NCBI RefSeq assembly: GCF_003967035.1 | Contig: NZ_AP018560.1 | Span: 1,511,001 to 1,575,000 of the forward strand | Direction: 5' to 3' | DNA length: 64,000 nt | DNA from: Aerosticca soli | GTDB lineage: Bacteria; Pseudomonadota; Gammaproteobacteria; Xanthomonadales; Rhodanobacteraceae | Shown: piece by piece, positions 5,536 through 17,212 of the stretch | Position numbering within the stretch: position 1 is the first letter of the stretch | How the letters are laid out: each line of letters begins with the position of its first letter | Translations under genes and position numbers: made by a program | The notes under the pieces: generated by a model | Told to the model about the DNA's origin: nothing | What the model saw: only the letters and a program-made list of their open reading frames with translations | Databases searched by the model: none

Positions 5536-6012
5536 TCAGGCCGGTTGCGGCAACAGCCGGCGAAGTTCGGCCTCCAGCCATTCCAGGTCCGGAATCACCG
5601 CCATGTCGTCGCGGACCAGCACCTGTGCACGCACGCCGGCCGGCAGCGGCGCGCCGTCGTGGGCCGGGATGATGAGTTCGGGATTGAGCGTGGTCAGCCG
5701 CGGAAACCCGCGGGTCAACACGGCGATGAAGGGCAGCGCCGGATCACCGCCCACGGCCTTGAGCACCGCCACGCGCACGGTGAGTTCCGGATCGCCTTCG
5801 CCGGCATGGGCCAGACGCGCGAAGGCGATCAGCGGCACCCGCCAGCCGCGCCAGGCGATGTGGCCGAGCAGCCAGTCTGGCGCATCGGTGACGGGCTCGG
5901 GCGTGGGCAGCGTGATGACCTCGGCGACGGTGGCATTGGGCAGCAGCAGGCGCAGATCACCGGCGGGCACCAGCACGCAGCGGATTTCGCGAGGCAGGGT
6001 CGGTTCGCTCAT
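5536..6012 (-). CDS. chpC: CheW-domain protein ChpC of the Pil-Chp system
   Basis: A 158-residue protein made almost entirely of one CheW-like fold (LLPNATVAEVITLP near the start, DWLLGHIAWRGWRVPLIAF in the middle). CheW proteins couple chemoreceptors to the CheA-type kinase. In Pil-Chp clusters a second CheW besides PilI is named ChpC and is the last gene of the operon, as here. The ATG at 6012 overlaps the chpB stop codon by one base (TGATG); an overlapping GTG at 6015 is an alternative start. Sequence identity to other ChpC proteins is usually low, so the name rests mainly on position and fold. Confidence 0.8.
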   Translation of the reverse strand: MSEPTLPREIRCVLVPAGDLRLLLPNATVAEVITLPTPEPVTDAPDWLLGHIAWRGWRVPLIAFARLAHAGEGDPELTVRVAVLKAVGGDPALPFIAVLTRGFPRLTTLNPELIIPAHDGAPLPAGVRAQVLVRDDMAVIPDLEWLEAELRRLLPQPA

Positions 6013-7493
6013 CACGGGCTCTTGGGGTCGTTGATGGCCAGCCGGGCGACGAGTCGCGCGGCGAGCTCCCGCGGCGTGCCGATGAAATGGAACAAGCGCT
6101 CGGCGCGTACCGCCTCGCCGACGTCGGCGGTATGCACGGCCGCGGTCTCGAGCCAGACCTCACCGCCGCGATCGTGCACGGCCTGGCATCCGCCGACGGC
6201 GTCGAGCGCTTGGCCCGCAAAGAGTATCGCCACCAGATCGCGCCCGAAGCTGTGGGCGAGCGCGGTGAAATTGGCATCGATTGCGGCGGCACGGAAATGG
6301 CGCGCGGTGAGCGGATGCAACGCGATGCGACCGTCGCGACCCAGTTCGCACTGTTGGCCCGACGGCACGATCAACACTTCGCCCTGTCGCGCGCGACCGC
6401 CGGACGTGGCCACCCGGACAGGCCAGGCACCGCCGGCGGCCAGCCGTGCCGCCAGGGCCTCGTCGCTTGGCGCGGACTCCTGCTGCACGTGGACCAAAAG
6501 CGCGCCCGCCGACACGGGCAGGGCCTGCAGGAAGGTTTCGACCGCCGCATCGCAGCCCGCCTCTGCGCCGATCACCACCACGCGTTCGATCAGACCGGCC
6601 TCGTCGAGCCAGGATTCGGCGACAGGCTGCGTGTCGTTACGCGCAGGCACGTCATCCTCATCATCGACCAGCACGTAGGCGGGCCATTCGGGATGGGAAA
6701 CCTCGGCTTCGCGCGACAGCTGGACGGATGCTGGCGGCGTCTCGTCCTCACCGGTGGCAGCGGCAGGAAAGCCAGGCGCATCGTCATCGACGAGGGTCCA
6801 GCTGTCCGACGGCCGCGGCGCGGCCGGCGTTTCAACCTCGGCACCCGGGCCGGTGGCAGACGACAGAGAAAAGTCCTGGACTGGGAAGGCCACATCCGGC
6901 TCGAAACCCGGACTCTCGGAGTCGGCGGGAACGGCGCCATCACTCTCCGCGCCTGCACTCTCCTCCGCCGCCGCCAGCAGGGCTTCGAGTTCGGCCGCGA
7001 GCGCCTCTGCATCCTGGTCGGCACGCGGATCGCGTTCGAAATCGGCAGGACTCGCCGCAAACGGGATGACGTCGTCCGCATGGATCGAGGGCGCGCCGGC
7101 GACATGGCCCGGCACGGCCTCGATCGGTCGCGCATCGCGCGGGCGCGGTGGGTCCAGTTCCCCGCGTTCGAGCACCTTGAGCGCCAGGTGCCGGGCCCAG
7201 CGCGCGCGATCCCAGCCTTCGAGGCCGCGGCTGGCCTCGGCATCATTGAACACGATGCGCAGTGTCAGGTCCTCGACCGCCGCATACAGACGCTCGAGCG
7301 AACCCTCGTCGGTCTCGTCGAGATTGACCACCAGCACCTCGGCGCCGCAATCATCGAGCAGCCCGCGGTCGATGCCGCTCAGCGGCCCCTCGTGCACGAT
7401 GCGCGCGCCGCGTGCCTGCAGGGCCTCGCGCAGATGCGCACCCAGAATGTCGTCGTCGAACAGCAGCGCGACGGCCGTTTCCCGCTCATCCAT
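6012..7493 (-). CDS. chpB: CheB-like protein ChpB, probably catalytically dead
   Basis: A 493-residue protein. The first ~110 residues look like a degenerate receiver-like domain (ALLFDDDILGAHLREAL). Residues ~120-290 are an acidic, low-complexity linker, and residues ~300-490 align by eye with the CheB methylesterase domain. The CheB nucleophile motif GASTGG reads GAEAGC here (residues 309-314), so Glu311 takes the place of the catalytic Ser, and the next residue positions are also changed. The catalytic His (usually QHM) has no clear counterpart, while the LTGMGxDG segment is FAGQALDA with only the Asp kept. It overlaps chpA by eight bases. Receptor demethylation is therefore unlikely; a scaffolding or regulatory role is inferred. 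Confidence 0.8.
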   Translation of the reverse strand: MDERETAVALLFDDDILGAHLREALQARGARIVHEGPLSGIDRGLLDDCGAEVLVVNLDETDEGSLERLYAAVEDLTLRIVFNDAEASRGLEGWDRARWARHLALKVLERGELDPPRPRDARPIEAVPGHVAGAPSIHADDVIPFAASPADFERDPRADQDAEALAAELEALLAAAEESAGAESDGAVPADSESPGFEPDVAFPVQDFSLSSATGPGAEVETPAAPRPSDSWTLVDDDAPGFPAAATGEDETPPASVQLSREAEVSHPEWPAYVLVDDEDDVPARNDTQPVAESWLDEAGLIERVVVIGAEAGCDAAVETFLQALPVSAGALLVHVQQESAPSDEALAARLAAGGAWPVRVATSGGRARQGEVLIVPSGQQCELGRDGRIALHPLTARHFRAAAIDANFTALAHSFGRDLVAILFAGQALDAVGGCQAVHDRGGEVWLETAAVHTADVGEAVRAERLFHFIGTPRELAARLVARLAINDPKSP

Positions 7494-10400
7494 GCGGCGT
7501 CTCCATCAGGGGTTGCAGCATCTCGCCGATCAACGCGAGCAACTCGGATTCTTGGTAGGGCTTGCCCAGATAGTGGTCGACGCCGATGTCGAAGGCGCGC
7601 TGGCGGTGTTTCTCGCCGGTGCGCGAGGTGATCATGATGATCGGGACCTCGCGCAGGCGCGGGTCGGCCTTCATCTGGGTGGCGAGCTCGTAGCCGTCCA
7701 TGCGCGGCATCTCGATGTCGAGCAGCATGAGATCGGGCACCCGCGACTCGTGCAGCTTCTCCAGCGCATCGAGCCCGTCCTTGGCGGTGGCGACCTCGTA
7801 TTCGTGGCGTTCGAGCACGCGGCTGGTGACCTTGCGCATGGTGATGGAATCGTCCACCACCATGACCAGCGGCCGCTGGCGCGGTGCCGCCGCCACCGGC
7901 GCCGGCACCGCCGGCCGACCTTCGGCGACGCGCCGGGCACGCCGCGTCAGGTTGTGCCGGATCAGCGGCGGCAGGTCCAGGATGACCAGTACCGAACCAT
8001 CGCCCATGATGGTGGCGCCGAGCACGCCCGGCACCGAGCTTACCTGCGGGCCGACCGACTTGACCACGATTTCGCGTGAGCCGATCACCGCGTCGATGCG
8101 GATGGCCGCGCGCACGTCGCCCGCGCGAGTCAGCAGCAGCGGTACGGTTTCATCGCCGGACGGCAGGCGGGCGGGCAGATCCAGCAGTTCGCCCAGGTCG
8201 TGGATGCCGTAGGCCTCGCCGTGGTGCTCGAATACCGGCGTGTCGTTCGCCAGATGCGCGGCGAGCTCGTCCGCCGCCACCCGCGCCACGCCTTGCACCG
8301 AGGCCATGGGGATGGCGAAGCTGGCCTCGCCGATGCGCACCAGGATGGCCTGGGTCACCGCCAGGGTGAAAGGCAGCCGTAGCACGAAGGTGGTGCCCTC
8401 GCCCGGCGCCGACTCGATCGCCAGCGAGCCGCCGAGCTGACGGATCTCGTTGGCCACCACGTCCATGCCGACGCCGCGGCCGGCAAGCTGGGTCACCGTG
8501 CCGGCGGTGGAGAAGCCAGGCTGGACGATGAGCGCGAGCAGCCGTGCGTCATCCAGCGTCGCGTCTGCCTCGATGAGCCCGCGCTCCAGCGCGCGTGCGC
8601 GGATCGCGGCGCGGTCCAGGCCGCGGCCGTCATCGCTGATGCGCACGACCACCTCGGTCGCCTCGCGCGCCACCTGGATGCGCACGGTGCCTTCTTCCGG
8701 CTTGCCGGCGCGGCGGCGATCGGCGGGCGACTCGATGCCGTGCGCCACCGCGTTGCGCAGCATGTGCTCGAATGGCGCCTTGAGCCGGTCGAGCAGGTTG
8801 CGATCCATTTCGCCGTGCGCGCCTTCCACCACCAGCTGGGCCAGCTTGCCCTCTTCCAGGGCCGACTGGCGCAGGGTCCGGCGCAGGTTCGGCACCAGGG
8901 TGTCGAAAGGCAGCATGCGCGTGCGCAGCAGGCCTTCCTGCAGATCGCTGCTGACCCGCGACTGCTGGATCAGCAGGGTTTCGGCCTGGCGGGTGAGTTC
9001 GTCGAGCGTGCCCTGGATCGAGACCAGGTCGGACACCGACTCGGCCAGCGCGCGCGAGTACTGCTGCAGCTGCGAGAAGCGGTCCAGCTCGAGCGGGTCG
9101 AACGCGGCCATGCCGGCCTCGCGATGCTCGCGCTGGTAACGGGCGATGATCTGCGCCTCGGTCTCGATCTCCAGCATGCGCAACTGGCTGCGCAGGCGGG
9201 TGACGGTCTGCTCCAGTTCGGCCAGGTTGAAGCGGTAGGCGGACACCTGCTGTTCCAGCCGCGAGCGGTAGATCGCCACCTCGCCGGCGTGATTGACCAG
9301 GCTGTCGAGCAAATCCGCGCGCACCCTGATCTGCTCGGCGCCACCACGGTTCGGGCCGTCTTCGGCCGTCGTTTCCTCGGGCAGCAGGGCCGGCAGCGGC
9401 TCCACGGCGGCCTGTTCGACGGGCGTCGACGCAGCACTGGCGCCTGCCAGGGCCAAGACGCGATCGATGAGCGCCTGCGGATAGGCCATCGCCCGGCCCT
9501 GCGCGAGCGCCTCGGTGAGCCCGTGGAGATGATCGAAACCGTGCTCGAGCAGGCGGATGACCTCCACCGCGCGCGATGGTTCAGCGATCGGTTTTTCGAG
9601 CAGGGTCTCGATGGCGTGGGCGAGATCGCCGACCGGGGCGAGTCCGGCAATGCGTGCGCCGCCCTTGAGCGTGTGCAGGTCGCGCTGCAGGTCTTTGACC
9701 GGCGCCATCTCTTCCGGCGCGGCCCGCCATTGCGCGAGCGTGGCGTCGGCGTGGTCCAGCAGGTCCCGCGCCTCGTCCAGAAAGACTTCCAGCAGGTCCT
9801 GGTCCACCGCCTGATCGACCGGACCGGTCGGGGCCGCAGACACCTCGGTAGTCTCTTGAGCCTCTTGAGTCTCTTGAGTCTCTTGAGTCTCTTGAGTCTC
9901 TTGAGTCTCTTGAGTCTCTTGAGTCTCTTGAGCCTCTTGAGCCTCGGAAGTTTCGGGTACTTCGGGCGCGAGAGAAGCCGCCGGCGCCTGGGAAACGTCG
10001 GCAATCGCAGCAAGCTCGTCGTGTTCCGGCGCGGCGGCCGCTTGAACTTCGTCCGGCGCCGCAGGTTGCGGAGTGCGCTCTTGCGGCGTTTCGGCGTGCT
10101 CCGCGAGGCCGGTATCGACGGCGTGGGCTGCCGCGTCGAAAGACGCCACGAAAGACGGCTCGGGTTCGACGTCCGGAGCCTCCGCGGCCGCATCGTCGGT
10201 CATCGCGGTCATGTCCGCGGCCTCCTCGAGCGCCTCGCCCGTATCCGCCTGCGCTTCTGCGGCGTCGGTCGGGGCGGGCCTTTCCTCGAGCAGGGCATCG
10301 AGCAGGGCGTCGAGCTCCTGCTCGTCATGCGGCGTTTCGAGCGGTTCCCTGATCGGCGGTTCGAACGCATCGAGTGCGGCGATCAGGGCTTCGTCCAGCG

Positions 10401-13400
10401 CGAACGATGCCTCGTCGGCATCGCCCGCGGCGGACGAGGGCGACTTCTGTTCGTCGGCGGTTTCCCGGACGGGCTCTACGTCTGGCGGCCGTGCCGGCTC
10501 GGCGGTCTGCTCGACGCGGGCGTCGTGATCCACGAGGTCCGGGAACGCGCCGGCGAATTCGATGGGTGGCTCGAGTGACACGATCGGTGCGGGCGATTCG
10601 TGCTGTGCGTCGCGCAGGGCGGCCAGCCTGGCCGCCAGCGGCTCGACGTCCGGCAATTGCGGCTCGGCGGCATCGAACTCCCGCATGTACTGCTCGACCA
10701 GATCCGCGGCGGACGACACCAGCTCCGCGGCTTCGGCGGACAGCGGCGTTCCGGCCCCGCGCAATCGCTTGATCAGTCCCTCCAGCGGGGAAAGCAGCCG
10801 CATCAGGGGTTCGACGTCGACCATGGCGATGGCGCCATGCAGGGTGTGCACCGCGCGCAACAGGTCGTCTTCGACCGGGATCGCCTGGCCGGCGTCGGCC
10901 AGCGCGGCCCGGATGGTCTGCAGATACTGGGCGACTTCGCTGCGCAGGATCTCGAGCAGGACCGGGTCTACCGGCGGCATCGCCGGCAGCGGAATGGTTT
11001 CCTCCGGCGCCGGCTGCGCCGCTACGCCGGCGAGACCGGCATCGTTGAACAAGGCGGCCGGCGCGGCATCGGCGTCGACGGCAGGCAGGCGCCGGCGCAC
11101 CGTGCGGCGCACGGCCTCGGTACCGGCCGCCGCCACGACCTGCTCCACCGTCGCCCGTTCGCCCGCGGCCAGGCGATCGGCCACCTGCATGATCGCCGAC
11201 AGCGGCGCCTCGGGCGGGGTGCCGTCGGCCAGCGCCCGACGCAGCTGCGGCAGCGCGGCGATCGCATGCCGGACCAGCGCCACGACATCGTCGTGTGGCG
11301 GGATGGTCCCGTCGAGCACACGATTGAGCATGTTCTCGACCTTCCAGGCGAATTCGCCGAGCACGCGCGCACCGACCAGCCGCCCGGAACCCTTCAGGGT
11401 ATGGAACGAGCGCCTGATCGGCACCAGCAGCGCCTGCTGTTCGGGCGCCATGCGCCAGGCACTTTCGGCAGCCTCGAGATGGCCGATTTCCTCGCTGACT
11501 TCCTCGAGAAAGATGGTGCGGATCTCATCGTCGATGTCCTCGCCACCCCGCTCGAAGCCGGCTTGCGCCGCGAGTGGATCGGCGACGGGACGCTCCTCGA
11601 CGATGGTTTCCTCGATCTCGGTCCAGTCCTGATCCGCTGCCGGCGGCGTCATGCCCTCTTCCGTCTGCACCAGGCGCAGGCCGGAGAGGTCCTGCCCGGT
11701 CTCGGCCGGCATCCGGGCTTCACCGAAGAACAGGGTCTCGGGGGCGTCACCCGGCGCCAGACTGACCGGTTCGTCCAGGACCGGCACCGGCGGCGGCTCG
11801 GTCCTGACCGCGGGTGCGGGCGCAGCGGTCGCCTCGAGCAGGGCACGCGCCTGCGGCAGGGGCCAGTAGCCGAGCTCGCCCAGGCTGTGTTCGGCCACGT
11901 CCAGAATGTGATCGAGACCGCCACGATGCTCGCGCGCGGCCTCCAGGTAGTACTCGAGCGCGGCCAGGGCGTCGGCCAGGTGATCCATTTGCGCGGCGCT
12001 CGGCACCCGCTGCTCGACCAGCAGCTCGTTGCGGACGAAACGGCCGATGCCTTCGGCCAGGTCGGCCGGGCGCATCGCCGAAAGCATGCGCAGCGCGCCG
12101 GCGACCTCGTCCATCAGCACCGGCACGCTGTTGAGCGCGTCGTGCCGCCAACCCGATTCCACGAACGCGACGATGGCGTCCTTGACCTTGGCGGTATTGC
12201 CCACCGCCTCCTGCATCAGCGTGGCCAGGATGTGCCTGGCCTCGCTGCGCGGCAGCAGCGGTCCGGCCTCGTCGGCCGAGTCCTCGTCCGCGCCCAGGCT
12301 GTCGATGTGGTCGTCGAGCGAGGCTTCGACGTAGAGCAGCGCGCCGGCCATATCAAGCAGGGTTTCTTCGTCGGCGGGCCGGGCACGGCGGACGATCTCG
12401 GCGAGCACGCGGCGCTGCTCGCCGATCACCCGCCGCGGCACGCCCAGGGCGAGCATGCCGAGCGTGTCGCCGACGCGTTCGAGCACCTCGCACTGCACGC
12501 CGAGCGTGGCCGGATCCGCGTCCGGCTGGCGCAGGAACAGGTCGAGCGCATCCTTGACCCGCAGCAGGTCCTCCTTCAGCGCCTTGGCGACCGAATCGAG
12601 CAGCGCGCGGTTGTGCCCGGACATGGAACCACGCGCATGCTCGAGTTCGGCGGCGTCCGGCAGCAGGCTGTCCAGCCGGTACACCTGCCGCAGCAACTCC
12701 ATCTGTGGGCTGCGCTGGGGTGCCTGGGCGACGAGATAGAGCAGTTGCCTGGCCAGATCATCGGCATCGCCGCCGCGCAGGCTTTCCTCGCCGCGGTCGA
12801 GCAGCTGGCGGATGTTGCGGTCCACCCGGCCGATCAGCCGACGGATTTCACCGGCCTGGCTTTTCAGCAGGCCCTGTTCGAGGCCTTCCAGCACGGCGGC
12901 GGCGATCCACCAGACCCGCCGCCCGGGCACGCTCCAGCAGCGGGCGCTGATGCCCAGCAGGGCCTGACGCATGCCGGCCAGCCGCTGTGCCGGCTGTTGG
13001 TTGCGGAACCAGGCCAGGAGATGCTGCTGGAAGCGGACGCGCAGCTCGGCGATCTCGCCAAGATGCCGCTCGGCCTCGCCGGCATCGGCAGCGCCCGGCA
13101 CCTGGGACGGCAACGGCGCCTCCAGGTTGGGCATGAACAGCGCGGCCTCCGACAAGGCCTGCTGATTGCGCGCCGCCCGCAGCTCGTTGAGCAGCGGCAG
13201 CAGGACCATCGGCACGTCCCGATGGCCGCTCGAGAGTCTCTCCAGATAGTCGGGCAGCTGCACCAGCCCGCGCATCAGGGCGGCATAGGCATCGTCGCGA
13301 CGATCGACGCCACCGGCGAGCAGCGCCAGGGCGAGCGATTCCATCTCCTCGGTGACCAGCGCCGCCCCGTACAGCTCCACCATGCGCAGGATGCTCTGCA

Positions 13401-13557
13401 CCTGGTGCAGCCGTTCGGCACAGTCGCGCATCGGCTCGGCCACGGTGGGACGGCCGACGTAGGCCTCGAGCGCCTCGCGGGCGCGGGCCAGCGTCTCGTC
13501 GAGCTCCGGCTTGACCCATTGCAGGGTGGTGAAATCGATGTTTTCTTGGAGTCTCAT
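7486..13557 (-). CDS. chpA: Hybrid chemotaxis histidine kinase ChpA (PilL)
   Basis: A very large (2023-residue) CheA-type kinase of the Pil-Chp pathway that phosphorylates PilG and PilH. Order of parts: an N-terminal FimL-like/degenerate Hpt region (LHQVQSILRMVEL around residue 50); Hpt domains with phospho-acceptor histidines at about His719 (FHTLKGSGRL), His904 (VHTLHGAIAM) and His1295 (LHTLKGGARIAG); the dimerisation helix region (~1390-1540); the ATPase domain (~1560-1705, N box near His1606, DDGRGLD, GRGVGMDVV); a CheW-like domain; and a C-terminal receiver with Asp1902/1903, phospho-site Asp1947 and Lys in GKPY. Long acidic Ala/Pro/Glu linkers separate the Hpt domains; one is a 9-bp minisatellite. 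Fewer Hpt modules are obvious than the eight described for Pseudomonas ChpA, but degenerate ones may hide in the N-terminal 600 residues. Confidence 0.93.
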   Translation of the reverse strand: MRLQENIDFTTLQWVKPELDETLARAREALEAYVGRPTVAEPMRDCAERLHQVQSILRMVELYGAALVTEEMESLALALLAGGVDRRDDAYAALMRGLVQLPDYLERLSSGHRDVPMVLLPLLNELRAARNQQALSEAALFMPNLEAPLPSQVPGAADAGEAERHLGEIAELRVRFQQHLLAWFRNQQPAQRLAGMRQALLGISARCWSVPGRRVWWIAAAVLEGLEQGLLKSQAGEIRRLIGRVDRNIRQLLDRGEESLRGGDADDLARQLLYLVAQAPQRSPQMELLRQVYRLDSLLPDAAELEHARGSMSGHNRALLDSVAKALKEDLLRVKDALDLFLRQPDADPATLGVQCEVLERVGDTLGMLALGVPRRVIGEQRRVLAEIVRRARPADEETLLDMAGALLYVEASLDDHIDSLGADEDSADEAGPLLPRSEARHILATLMQEAVGNTAKVKDAIVAFVESGWRHDALNSVPVLMDEVAGALRMLSAMRPADLAEGIGRFVRNELLVEQRVPSAAQMDHLADALAALEYYLEAAREHRGGLDHILDVAEHSLGELGYWPLPQARALLEATAAPAPAVRTEPPPVPVLDEPVSLAPGDAPETLFFGEARMPAETGQDLSGLRLVQTEEGMTPPAADQDWTEIEETIVEERPVADPLAAQAGFERGGEDIDDEIRTIFLEEVSEEIGHLEAAESAWRMAPEQQALLVPIRRSFHTLKGSGRLVGARVLGEFAWKVENMLNRVLDGTIPPHDDVVALVRHAIAALPQLRRALADGTPPEAPLSAIMQVADRLAAGERATVEQVVAAAGTEAVRRTVRRRLPAVDADAAPAALFNDAGLAGVAAQPAPEETIPLPAMPPVDPVLLEILRSEVAQYLQTIRAALADAGQAIPVEDDLLRAVHTLHGAIAMVDVEPLMRLLSPLEGLIKRLRGAGTPLSAEAAELVSSAADLVEQYMREFDAAEPQLPDVEPLAARLAALRDAQHESPAPIVSLEPPIEFAGAFPDLVDHDARVEQTAEPARPPDVEPVRETADEQKSPSSAAGDADEASFALDEALIAALDAFEPPIREPLETPHDEQELDALLDALLEERPAPTDAAEAQADTGEALEEAADMTAMTDDAAAEAPDVEPEPSFVASFDAAAHAVDTGLAEHAETPQERTPQPAAPDEVQAAAAPEHDELAAIADVSQAPAASLAPEVPETSEAQEAQETQETQETQETQETQETQETQEAQETTEVSAAPTGPVDQAVDQDLLEVFLDEARDLLDHADATLAQWRAAPEEMAPVKDLQRDLHTLKGGARIAGLAPVGDLAHAIETLLEKPIAEPSRAVEVIRLLEHGFDHLHGLTEALAQGRAMAYPQALIDRVLALAGASAASTPVEQAAVEPLPALLPEETTAEDGPNRGGAEQIRVRADLLDSLVNHAGEVAIYRSRLEQQVSAYRFNLAELEQTVTRLRSQLRMLEIETEAQIIARYQREHREAGMAAFDPLELDRFSQLQQYSRALAESVSDLVSIQGTLDELTRQAETLLIQQSRVSSDLQEGLLRTRMLPFDTLVPNLRRTLRQSALEEGKLAQLVVEGAHGEMDRNLLDRLKAPFEHMLRNAVAHGIESPADRRRAGKPEEGTVRIQVAREATEVVVRISDDGRGLDRAAIRARALERGLIEADATLDDARLLALIVQPGFSTAGTVTQLAGRGVGMDVVANEIRQLGGSLAIESAPGEGTTFVLRLPFTLAVTQAILVRIGEASFAIPMASVQGVARVAADELAAHLANDTPVFEHHGEAYGIHDLGELLDLPARLPSGDETVPLLLTRAGDVRAAIRIDAVIGSREIVVKSVGPQVSSVPGVLGATIMGDGSVLVILDLPPLIRHNLTRRARRVAEGRPAVPAPVAAAPRQRPLVMVVDDSITMRKVTSRVLERHEYEVATAKDGLDALEKLHESRVPDLMLLDIEMPRMDGYELATQMKADPRLREVPIIMITSRTGEKHRQRAFDIGVDHYLGKPYQESELLALIGEMLQPLMETPHG
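9852..9941 (-). repeat. 9-bp in-frame minisatellite coding Glu-Thr-Gln inside chpA
   Basis: Ten head-to-tail 9-base units. Seven are identical on the plus strand (TCTCTTGAG, 9870-9932) and flanking units differ by one base (CCTCTTGAG). In the chpA frame they read (Glu-Thr/Ala-Gln)n within the linker just before the third canonical Hpt domain. Because the unit is a multiple of three, copy-number change would alter linker length without a frameshift. Confidence 0.95.
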
Positions 13558-13621
13558 GCCTGCCTCTTGAGGCTGCGCAACGCAGCGCGCAACCGACGAG
13601 GTTGCCGTAAGGTCCCGCCGC

Positions 13622-15652
13622 TCAACCCGGCAGTTTGAAGTGCGCCACCGAACGCCGCAGGTCGCTGGCCAGCTTGGCCAGGTAACCGATCGACTCGGCG
13701 GTCCGGCTCGCGCCCTGCGAGGTCTGCGAGGTGATCTCCTGGATCGCGTTCATGGACTGGGAAATGTGCGTCGCCGCATCGGACTGCGCGCGCGCGGCGG
13801 TGGAGATGTTCTGGATCAGCGCCGAAAGATCGTGCGACACGCGCTCGATGTCGCCGAGCGCGCTGCCGGCATCCTCGGCCTTGCGCGCGCCGGCGACCAC
13901 CTCTGCCGTGGTCTGCTCCATCGAATGGACCGCCTCGTTGGTATCGGACTGAATCGCCTTGACCAGTGCCTCGATGCGCTTGGTGGCGCTGGCGGAACGC
14001 TCGGCGAGCCGCTGCACTTCGTCGGCGACCACCGCGAAACCGCGTCCGGCCTCGCCGGCCGAGGCGGCCTGGATGGCCGCGTTCAGGGCGAGGATGTTGG
14101 TCTGCTCGGCGATGTCGTTGATGAGCTCCACGATCGAACCGATCTCCTGCGAGGATTCGCCCAGCCGCTTGATCCGCTTGGAGGTCTCCTGGATCTGGTC
14201 GCGGATCGAGTCCATCCCGGAAATGGTCTCGCGCACCACCTGCGCGCCGCGCGAGGCGATCTCGACCGAGCGCTCGGCCACCTCGGCCGATTCGGCCGAA
14301 TCGCGCGACACGCCGTCCATCTGGCTCGCGATCTGGTTGATCGCGCTGGTGGCCGAGCTGATCCGCTGGGCCTGATGCTCGGCGGCGTCGGCGAGCTGGC
14401 GGGCGGTGGTCTGGGTTTCCTGCGCGGAGGAGGACACCTGCTCGGACGTCTCGTTGATCGTGGTCACCAGCGTGCGCAGCTCGTCGATCGCGTAGTTCAC
14501 CGAATCGGCGATCGCCCCGGTGATGTCCTCGGAAACGGTCGTCTTGACGGTGAGGTCGCCCTCGGCCAGCGAACCCATCTCGTCCAGCAGGCGCATGATC
14601 GCCTCCTGGTTGCGCTGGTTGAGCTCGGTACTCTCGCGGAAGCGACGGCGCTGATCGCCGACCAGGGCCACCACCAAAAGCAGTGCGAAGGCCACTGCGG
14701 CCAGGGCGCCGAACACGCCCCACTCCACGTTGGGGAATAGGCGGCGGTAGGGCAGCCGGCCGATCTGTTCGGCCAGTTCGTTCGCACGCAACAGCACGTT
14801 CTGCGAATCCAGCGAGGCCTGGTTGCCGGCCAGCTTCACCTCGGCGAGATTGCCGGCGGTGGCGACCAGCTTGGCGATCGGCTCGGCCAGGGTCTGCCAG
14901 TTGGCCTGCATGTCGGCGAGGATCTTGTGCGCATTCGCGTCCCCGATCGCCTGGGTGCCGGTGTCGGCGTTGCCCTGCAGCAAACCGTCCAGCACCGCGC
15001 CGTAGAGCTGGGCATCACGGGCCAGGCCATCCGCGGCGGCCTGCACACCCTCGCCGCCCTGCAGGACCTCCTGTACGCGGCGGATGATGCGGTCGGCCAG
15101 CAGCATCTGGCGCGAGGCCCCGAGCATCTGTTCGGCGTTGCCGCCGCGCTGCTGCAGAATGTTGGTGACCTGGTCCATGCTCGAATTGAGCAGGGGCATC
15201 TGCTTGGCGATGCGGTCGGCGCGGTCGGCCGACTCCAGAATGACCGCCTTGCTGGAAAGGATCTTGCGGATGTCGCCGTCGAGCTGCGTCCAGGCCTGGC
15301 TCAGGGCCGTGACCGCGCGCCCGACCGGGCTGGCATTGCCGTCACCATAGGCCGGCATGCCAGTCCGCGGATCGCCCTTGGCCAGGCGGGTGACCGCCGA
15401 GTCGATGGCGTTGCGGGTGCCTTCGAGTTCCTTGAAGGCGTCGACATTGCCACCCGCGGCCTCCAGCGCATATTTCGCCGTCTGCTGCGAAAGCACCTGG
15501 ATCTGCGTGGTCAGGCCGATGGCCTGGCGGTCCTCGCCGTTTTTCTGGAACAGCATGAAAAAATCGACCGCGGCGAATGCGATCGCCAGCAGCAAGAGAA
15601 CGATGAGGCCGGTATAGCCCCGTTCCTTGCCGACGCCCCCTGCTGCTTTCAT
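13622..15652 (-). CDS. pilJ: Methyl-accepting chemotaxis protein PilJ
   Basis: A 676-residue chemoreceptor of the Pil-Chp system. A short cytoplasmic start ([15 protein letters not shown]) precedes transmembrane helix 1 (about residues 15-36). A ~290-residue periplasmic region of PilJ type follows, then transmembrane helix 2 ([24 protein letters not shown] region, ~325-350), a HAMP linker and the long signalling coiled coil. The conserved hairpin tip reads [20 protein letters not shown] then [15 protein letters not shown]. The start at 15652 is the ATG nearest the first helix; the open frame extends 45 bases further up. In other systems PilJ senses pilin or surface contact. Confidence 0.94.
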
Positions 15653-15758
15653 TTCGGCCACCTCGTCGTCTTTCCACCCGCCGCGCCGTACGACCACGGC
15701 GCGGCATTTCCCTCGAAAAAAGGCCCGGCAAGGCGCCTCTCCATCACGTCCGCACTAT

Positions 15759-16301
15759 TCAGGCGGCTGCCTGGCGAAAATCCGGAGCCCGCACCAACCG
15801 GCTCATGCTGAACAGTGCCAGCTCCTGGCCATCGACCTGCACGCGCCGCTCCACGAATCGCGCGAGTCGCGGATCATCCTCGGCCACCGAAGTCTGCCGC
15901 TGGGTCTCATCCACGGTGCGCTGTCCGTAAACCTCGTCGACGAGCAGCGCCACCGCGCCGCCGCCCTGACGGACCACCAGCAACCGGCTGCGCTCCCCGG
16001 GCGTGGTGCGCATGTCGAACAGGAACCGGGCCAGATCGATCACCGGCACCAGATTGCCGCGCACGTTGGCAATGCCGAGCATCCACGGCTGCGTGCCCGG
16101 TACCGGAGTGATCGCGGGCACCGCGAGCAGTTCGCTGATTTCCTCGATGCCGCTGGCCAGGCTGCGTGCGCCCACGCGATAGCCGATGCCGCGCCACAGG
16201 CCAGGAGCGTCGAGGCGATCCTCCAGCTCGAGCGCATGCGCAAGCGAAAGACGCTCGTAGCGCGCCAGGATCTCGAACGGCGAGAGCGCGAGGGCATTCA
16301 T
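15759..16301 (-). CDS. pilI: CheW-type adaptor PilI
   Basis: A 180-residue adaptor linking PilJ to the ChpA kinase. It has one CheW domain: GIGYRVGARSLASGIEEISE, VPGTQPWMLGIANVRGNLVPVIDL (the most conserved CheW stretch, shown here in part), and LLVDEVYGQRTV. The ATG at 16301 overlaps the pilH stop codon (ATGA), which implies translational coupling and fixes the start; the open frame upstream is inside pilH. Confidence 0.93.
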   Translation of the reverse strand: MNALALSPFEILARYERLSLAHALELEDRLDAPGLWRGIGYRVGARSLASGIEEISELLAVPAITPVPGTQPWMLGIANVRGNLVPVIDLARFLFDMRTTPGERSRLLVVRQGGGAVALLVDEVYGQRTVDETQRQTSVAEDDPRLARFVERRVQVDGQELALFSMSRLVRAPDFRQAAA

Positions 16302-16669
16302 GCGGCGCGCGCCAGCAGGTCGTCGATACAGGCGAGCAACGCGCCCGCATCGACCGGCTTGGTGATGAAGGCGCGCGCGCCCTGGCGCAGGCCCCATACG
16401 CGATCGCTTTCCATGGACTTGGTGGTGATCATCACCACCGGTACGTCCATGGTCTGCGGATGCCGGGTCAGCATGCGGGTGGCCTGGAAGCCGTTGAGGC
16501 CGGGCATGATGACATCCATGAGGATGAGGTCCGGACGCTCGCGATGGACCCGCTCGATGCCTTCCTCGGCCGTCCCGGCGGCCACGACCCGATGCCCGGC
16601 CTTTTCGAGCATGCCGGTGAGCACGCGCACGTCCACCGGTGAGTCGTCGATGATCAAAATGCTCGCCAT
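16298..16669 (-). CDS. pilH: Single-domain response regulator PilH
   Basis: A 123-residue CheY-like receiver with the acidic pocket IIDDSP, phospho-acceptor Asp in LILMDVIMPG, Thr-Thr in VMITTKS and Lys in ITKPVD. It is the second receiver of the Pil-Chp operon. In Pseudomonas PilH opposes PilG, affecting PilT-driven retraction and phosphate flow. It lies 17 bp after pilG and overlaps pilI by four bases. Confidence 0.94.
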   Translation of the reverse strand: MASILIIDDSPVDVRVLTGMLEKAGHRVVAAGTAEEGIERVHRERPDLILMDVIMPGLNGFQATRMLTRHPQTMDVPVVMITTKSMESDRVWGLRQGARAFITKPVDAGALLACIDDLLARAA

Positions 16670-16686: not shown

Positions 16687-17091
16687 TCAGGCCGGCTGAC
16701 CGACGTGGCGCTGGATGGCGCCCAAGAGTTCGTCGCGGGTGAAGGGCTTGGTGAGGTATTGCTCGGCGCCGACGATGCGCCCCCGGGCCTTGTCGAACAG
16801 GCCGTCCTTGGAACTCAGCATGATGACCGGCGTGCCGCGGAACTGCGGATTGTTCTTGATCAGCGCGCAGGTCTGATAGCCGTCCAGCCGCGGCATCATG
16901 ATGTCCACGAAGATGATCGCGGGCTTGTGCTCGGCGATCTTGGCTAGCGCCTCGAAGCCATCGACGGCGGTCAGCACCTCGCAGCCTTCCTTCCTGAGCA
17001 ACGTCTCCGCGGTGCGCCGGATGGTCTTGGAGTCGTCGATCACCATGACCTTGAGACCGGCCAGACCGTTAGCGTTCGAGTTCAGGTTCAC
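16687..17091 (-). CDS. pilG: Single-domain response regulator PilG
   Basis: A 134-residue CheY-like receiver, the usual PilG length. Key residues are the acidic pair in VIDDSKTIRR, the phospho-acceptor Asp in FVDIMMPRLDGYQ, VIMLSSKDG and Lys in LTKPFTRDEL. PilG promotes PilB-driven pilus extension in Pil-Chp systems. I place the start at a GTG (17091) preceded by GGGGGG; the open frame continues far upstream, but in unrelated sequence that overlaps gshB on the other strand. It is the first gene of the operon running through chpC. Confidence 0.93.
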   Translation of the reverse strand: MNLNSNANGLAGLKVMVIDDSKTIRRTAETLLRKEGCEVLTAVDGFEALAKIAEHKPAIIFVDIMMPRLDGYQTCALIKNNPQFRGTPVIMLSSKDGLFDKARGRIVGAEQYLTKPFTRDELLGAIQRHVGQPA

Positions 17092-17212
17092 TATTCCCCC
17101 CGCAGCCCACCCCAGGCCGAGGCAACAACTTCGACAAAGCGCCAGCGGCGCGCATGAAGAACCAGACGACTTGAAGGTGCGGCGACACGGCTGCCGATCA
17201 CTGCCGACCTGC

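Follow-up and report, generated by a model that had tools for sequence, protein, structure and literature searches.

Among the known systems closest to the one analysed here are the Pil-Chp systems of Pseudomonas aeruginosa and Xylella fastidiosa. In P. aeruginosa, PilK and ChpB are both needed for the methylation of PilJ in vivo, and the placement of ChpB at the leading pole depends on PilG (review PMC12632253); X. fastidiosa twitches significantly less when chpB is knocked out (PMC9956873). We compared these systems with the Pil-Chp operon of Aerosticca soli, which is contained in a 64,000-nucleotide stretch of contig NZ_AP018560.1 (the window).

Operon layout and adaptation enzymes of the genome

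The Pil-Chp genes occupy the minus strand in the order pilG, pilH, pilI, pilJ, chpA, chpB and chpC (Table 1). The placement of chpB directly after chpA and before chpC, and an N-terminal domain bearing the R-W-x-R-x4-K motif that it has in common with Pseudomonas ChpB, identify the gene product as a ChpB orthologue, the receiver homology of that domain being itself weak. PilT-family genes were found in the genome, two of them near 25 kb of the window, and type IV pilus motors are therefore present. Within chpA, a 9-bp tandem repeat of about 10.7 copies (positions 9850-9945) encodes a Gln-Glu-Thr run in the linker before an Hpt domain; its copy number could differ among strains.

Table 1. Features of the Pil-Chp operon and of ChpB (window coordinates)
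Feature	Position	Strand	Basis
chpC, CheW-like, overlapping the end of chpB	5536..6015	-	Pfam CheW, E 1.2e-13
chpB, 493 aa, degenerate CheB-type methylesterase of the Pil-Chp operon	6012..7493	-	ORF; Pfam; AlphaFold2 and Foldseek
ChpB CheB-fold domain (predicted), residues 303-487	6033..6587	-	AlphaFold2 and Foldseek; PDB sequence matches
Asp431 codon, catalytic Asp position, kept	6201..6203	-	Alignments
Gln338 codon, catalytic His position	6480..6482	-	Alignments
Glu311 codon, catalytic Ser position (GAEAGC for the GASTGG nucleophile elbow)	6561..6563	-	Alignments
Helix predicted within the ChpB linker, which is elsewhere disordered, residues 156-180	6954..7028	-	AlphaFold2; LAAELEALLA consensus of relatives
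ChpB N-terminal receiver-like (pseudo-receiver) domain, residues 6-108	7170..7478	-	Alignment; AlphaFold2; weak Foldseek receiver matches
chpA, multi-Hpt CheA-type kinase with CheW and receiver domains	7486..13557	-	Pfam
pilJ-chpA intergenic gap, 64 bp, site of pilK in relatives	13558..13621	.	ORFs; order in relatives
pilJ, chemoreceptor	13622..15697	-	Pfam MCPsignal and PilJ
pilI, CheW-like, start codon uncertain	15759..16397	-	Pfam CheW, E 4.2e-28
pilH, single receiver domain	16298..16669	-	ORF sequence; order in relatives
pilG, single receiver domain, start approximate	16687..17130	-	ORF sequence; order in relatives

As an earlier note on this DNA had claimed, no pilK or other CheR gene lies between pilJ and chpA, and the 64 bp that separate the two genes leave no room for one. 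The genome-wide search that the note proposed was carried out for CheR and CheB on an assembly of 2.87 Mb (one contig, 99.97% complete), and it returned a single CheR (C1:818479-819075) and a single other CheB with an intact GASTGG motif (C1:820317-820853), the pair being located about 0.7 Mb from the Pil-Chp operon and clustered with genes for a CheA and two MCPs. A tree of 48 CheR and PilK proteins joined all PilKs encoded in operons in one clade (SH-aLRT 99) and placed the Aerosticca soli CheR among the canonical CheRs; a topology constrained to hold it within the PilK clade was rejected (AU p 0.003). A relocated PilK was thus not found, as the sole genomic CheR falls outside the PilK clade; of a complete PilK and ChpB adaptation module, the PilK component is missing from the operon and from the genome alike.

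The presence of one intact CheR and one intact CheB in the genome gives some support to the alternative that the enzymes of the separate che cluster methylate and demethylate PilJ, making the activities of PilK and ChpB redundant. With the sites taken as defined in P. aeruginosa (PMC10896506), the candidate pairs of PilJ are Q426/E427 (14417-14422), A637/Q638 (13784-13789) and Q653/E654 (13736-13741); two of the three glutamate/glutamine pairs are retained, the middle site being Ala637/Gln638, and the canonical CheR may yet methylate PilJ. The first pair, however, is equally conserved in lineages without PilK and ChpB, that is, regardless of pilK; its retention is therefore not evidence of methylation, and the loss of PilJ sites proved uninformative as a marker of lost methylation for the same reason. 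Furthermore, the pilK-less relatives G025 and G029 have no CheR at all, so that a substitute is not required, and the che cluster includes a CheA and receptors of its own. We consider such cross-talk unlikely. The loci of these two relatives (L141 in G025 and L144 in G029) carry an intact ChpB triad with no CheR found anywhere in their genomes, which could represent an intermediate stage or a ChpB serving only as a glutaminase.

The CheB-type domain of ChpB and its catalytic site

The C-terminal domain of ChpB is predicted to retain the CheB fold: the Pfam family CheB_methylest (PF01339) matches residues 306-480 (E 4.5e-20; 72.5 bits against a cut-off of 24), and the AlphaFold2 model, with pLDDT mostly >88 over residues 303-487, was matched by Foldseek to known CheB structures (1CHD, TM(target) 0.81; 3SFT, 0.85; prob 1.00). 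The triad positions were set by aligning ChpB with E. coli CheB, the intact CheB of the same genome and relatives; with E. coli CheB as the yardstick, the same placement was obtained from alignments with the genome's own CheB and with CheBs of the PDB. The Ser-His-Asp triad of active CheB is incomplete in ChpB, which carries E311, Q338 and D431 at the three positions. The alignments bear out the earlier description of a serine-less CheB in which GASTGG has become GAEAGC, with Glu311 in place of Ser; the accompanying remark that the catalytic His is not evident can be made more specific, as the His is indeed missing, its position is taken by Gln338, and Asp431 survives. Alignment across relatives, a check suggested with that description, likewise placed the replacements at Ser and His and yielded no alternative Ser-His-Asp triad: His335 is a separate histidine, since relatives have both it and the catalytic His, the elbow offers no aligned Ser, and relatives do not conserve Cys314. 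ChpB in this genome is a predicted CheB fold devoid of the catalytic Ser and His, and we presume it to be inactive.

The N-terminal domain (residues 6-108) was modelled with a pLDDT of about 90. In the alignment, Asn57 sits at its apparent phospho-acceptor Asp position, and R98, W99, R101 and K106 of the R-W-x-R-x4-K motif are invariant in ChpB from Pseudomonas through to Aerosticca soli. Because the profile of this domain matched PilG/PilH only weakly (probability 14%, with E 0.0019 for a single comparison), we term it receiver-like from the model only. The predicted helix of the linker is conserved in relatives and is a possible docking motif.

Loss of pilK and of the ChpB active site across relatives

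A scan with the catalytic region of ChpA yielded 80 loci, to which whole-genome searches and region fetches added more; the closest named relatives by ChpA are Dyella and Rhodanobacter (81% identity), which puts the locus within or close to Rhodanobacteraceae. The 77 loci having both ChpA and ChpB were scored for pilK and for the ChpB triad. The Ser-His-Asp triad was intact at all pilK-carrying loci (25/25), and among the pilK-less loci that keep chpB the active site was degenerate in 43/52 and intact in 9/52 (Fisher P=4.5e-13, with the relatedness of loci uncorrected); three of the degenerate loci (L048, L130 and L138) have a Ser at the nucleophile column with the GxSxGG context lost, and their inactivity is less certain. 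At the nine intact loci pilK is already gone and the triad still present. On the ChpA tree, about seven losses of pilK and about four losses of the ChpB active site were placed, the latter all on pilK-less branches: in the Rhodanobacter-Dyella-Luteibacter clade, which includes Aerosticca soli, in the Xanthomonadaceae clade, and in the single lineages G016 and G041. Since 40% of the tree length belongs to pilK-less branches, all four losses would fall there with a naive probability of 0.025; an independent-pairs sign test was not significant (median P=0.25), the events being few. By the sequences compared, the combination of a degenerate ChpB with the loss of pilK is a clade-wide feature, not one particular to this locus. 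Outside Lysobacterales, pilK-less loci are generally without ChpB, for example in the Pseudomonas fluorescens group, and wherever ChpB accompanies pilK at these loci, its triad is intact. At nine loci of the P. fluorescens group (L105, L107-L109, L114 and L117-L120), the operon is without pilK and no chpB follows chpA.

The triad losses of Rhodanobacteraceae and Xanthomonadaceae have separate origins on the ChpA tree and took different routes. In Xanthomonadaceae ChpBs, the catalytic Ser is replaced by Gly in 38/38 and the elbow is fixed as G-x-GGP, with GGP invariant, while the His position (R, Q, P, T, K) and the Asp position (A, G, Q, T, others) vary freely. Among the 28 ChpBs of Rhodanobacteraceae, A, T, S or E stands at the Ser position and D/E-S has mostly taken the place of the GG, while the Asp is retained in 28/28 and the His in 26/28. 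Opposite halves of the active site have stayed constrained in the two families, a pattern for which simple decay is a poor explanation. The near-complete retention of Asp and His in Rhodanobacteraceae is what would be expected if ChpB had gained a different catalytic activity using these residues, but the variable nucleophile position is accompanied by no alternative conserved nucleophile that we could see, the Aerosticca soli protein has lost the His, and Xanthomonadaceae have lost both residues, making a new activity very improbable.

The dN/dS of the CheB domain ranged from 0.075 to 0.20 in degenerate Xanthomonas- and Dyella-type pairs, as against 0.07-0.16 in intact, pilK-carrying pairs, and was higher (0.30) in a degenerate Stenotrophomonas pair. 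Purifying selection acts on the degenerate domains, which are therefore regarded as maintained pseudoenzymes. A pilK-less pair with an intact triad (L053/L124) gave a CheB-domain value of 0.43, where relaxation is possibly under way. Between Aerosticca soli and its sister, the values were 0.66 for the CheB domain and 0.27 for ChpA, and with so high a value in this lineage ChpB could be eroding in this genome. That ChpB is here a decaying, functionless remnant would agree with the long branch and the high CheB-domain dN/dS of the lineage and with the loss of both Ser and His; against this, its reading frame is intact within an overlapping operon, ChpA is accelerated on the same branch, so that the rate is partly lineage-wide, degenerate ChpB persists under purifying selection in 28 Rhodanobacteraceae and 38 Xanthomonadaceae, and the pilK-less loci of other gammaproteobacterial groups dropped chpB altogether. 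Decay to a remnant is, in our judgement, distinctly improbable. In the ChpA tree, the Aerosticca soli branch is long, at 0.26 changes per site compared with 0.03 for the sister lineage, which suggests quicker evolution in this small-genome lineage.

Possible role of ChpB and comparison with known systems

We propose, with a probability of about 0.72, that ChpB is a maintained pseudoenzyme that was kept after the loss of pilK because the pilus pathway also uses it in a non-catalytic way. According to this proposal, pilK would have been lost in the ancestor of the Rhodanobacter-Dyella-Luteibacter clade, whereupon the ChpB esterase, left with no dedicated methyltransferase, would have become useless and its nucleophile loop would have drifted; the protein would have been retained because of its additional non-catalytic job, most likely that of a polar structural partner relying on the receiver-like N-terminal domain (R-W-R-K) and/or the CheB fold, with PilG, PilJ or ChpA as putative contacts. 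A non-catalytic role, most simply that of a polar partner, is favoured because of the polar ChpB of P. aeruginosa and the Xylella knockout, the Xylella step depending on a ChpB that we infer to be serine-less because Xylella belongs to Xanthomonadaceae, in which every ChpB sequence examined lacks the serine; Xylella ChpB was not found among the genomes searched, and the ChpB loci fetched for the family all had a GC content of 58% or more. The suggestion of the earlier note that methylation-based adaptation has been lost while ChpB was kept, perhaps as a scaffold, is supported in part, namely for the absent dedicated Pil-Chp methyltransferase, the missing Ser and His, and the retention of ChpB under purifying selection across relatives; the scaffold would be one form of the role proposed here.

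More tentatively, and on odds that we would put somewhat below even, ChpB may have two functions, of which the main and ancestral one would be the non-enzymatic polar organisation of Pil-Chp by the pseudo-receiver and the CheB body, a role that would have been exposed at least four times by the loss of adaptation in Lysobacterales, in two cases with opposite halves of the active site constrained, leading to an adaptation-free pilus chemosensory system. To judge from their sequences, genes annotated as ChpB methylesterase in Xanthomonadaceae and Rhodanobacteraceae very probably encode non-enzymes, in which case the pilus-steering systems of these families would run without a dedicated receptor-adaptation pair. 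This raises the question of how Pil-Chp steers twitching without a methylation memory, and of what ChpB does beyond demethylation; in natural ChpB pseudoenzymes the two functions are already separated, with no engineering needed. No paper describing a degenerate ChpB was found in a literature search that left out most subscription journals, and we provisionally regard it as a new observation.

The Aerosticca soli locus resembles the Pil-Chp system of P. aeruginosa (PMC10896506, PMC12632253) in its operon order, in the combination of a receiver-like N-terminal domain with a CheB-fold C-terminal domain in ChpB, and in its PilJ and ChpA partners, but unlike P. aeruginosa, which has pilK, it lacks this gene and the catalytic Ser and His of ChpB. 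The predicted fold of the C-terminal domain is that of the CheB methylesterase/glutaminase (PDB 1CHD, 1A2O, 3SFT and 6YMZ), from which ChpB differs in its replaced Ser and His and in the Asn at the apparent phospho-acceptor position of the N-terminal domain. With the Xylella fastidiosa/Xanthomonas type of operon (PMC3927602, PMC9956873), the locus shares the absence of pilK and of the catalytic Ser, as read in the loci of Xanthomonas, Stenotrophomonas and Lysobacter; whereas Xanthomonadaceae keep the elbow, with Gly for Ser and GGP, and have lost the His and the Asp, the clade of Aerosticca soli has lost the elbow and mostly keeps the His and the Asp.
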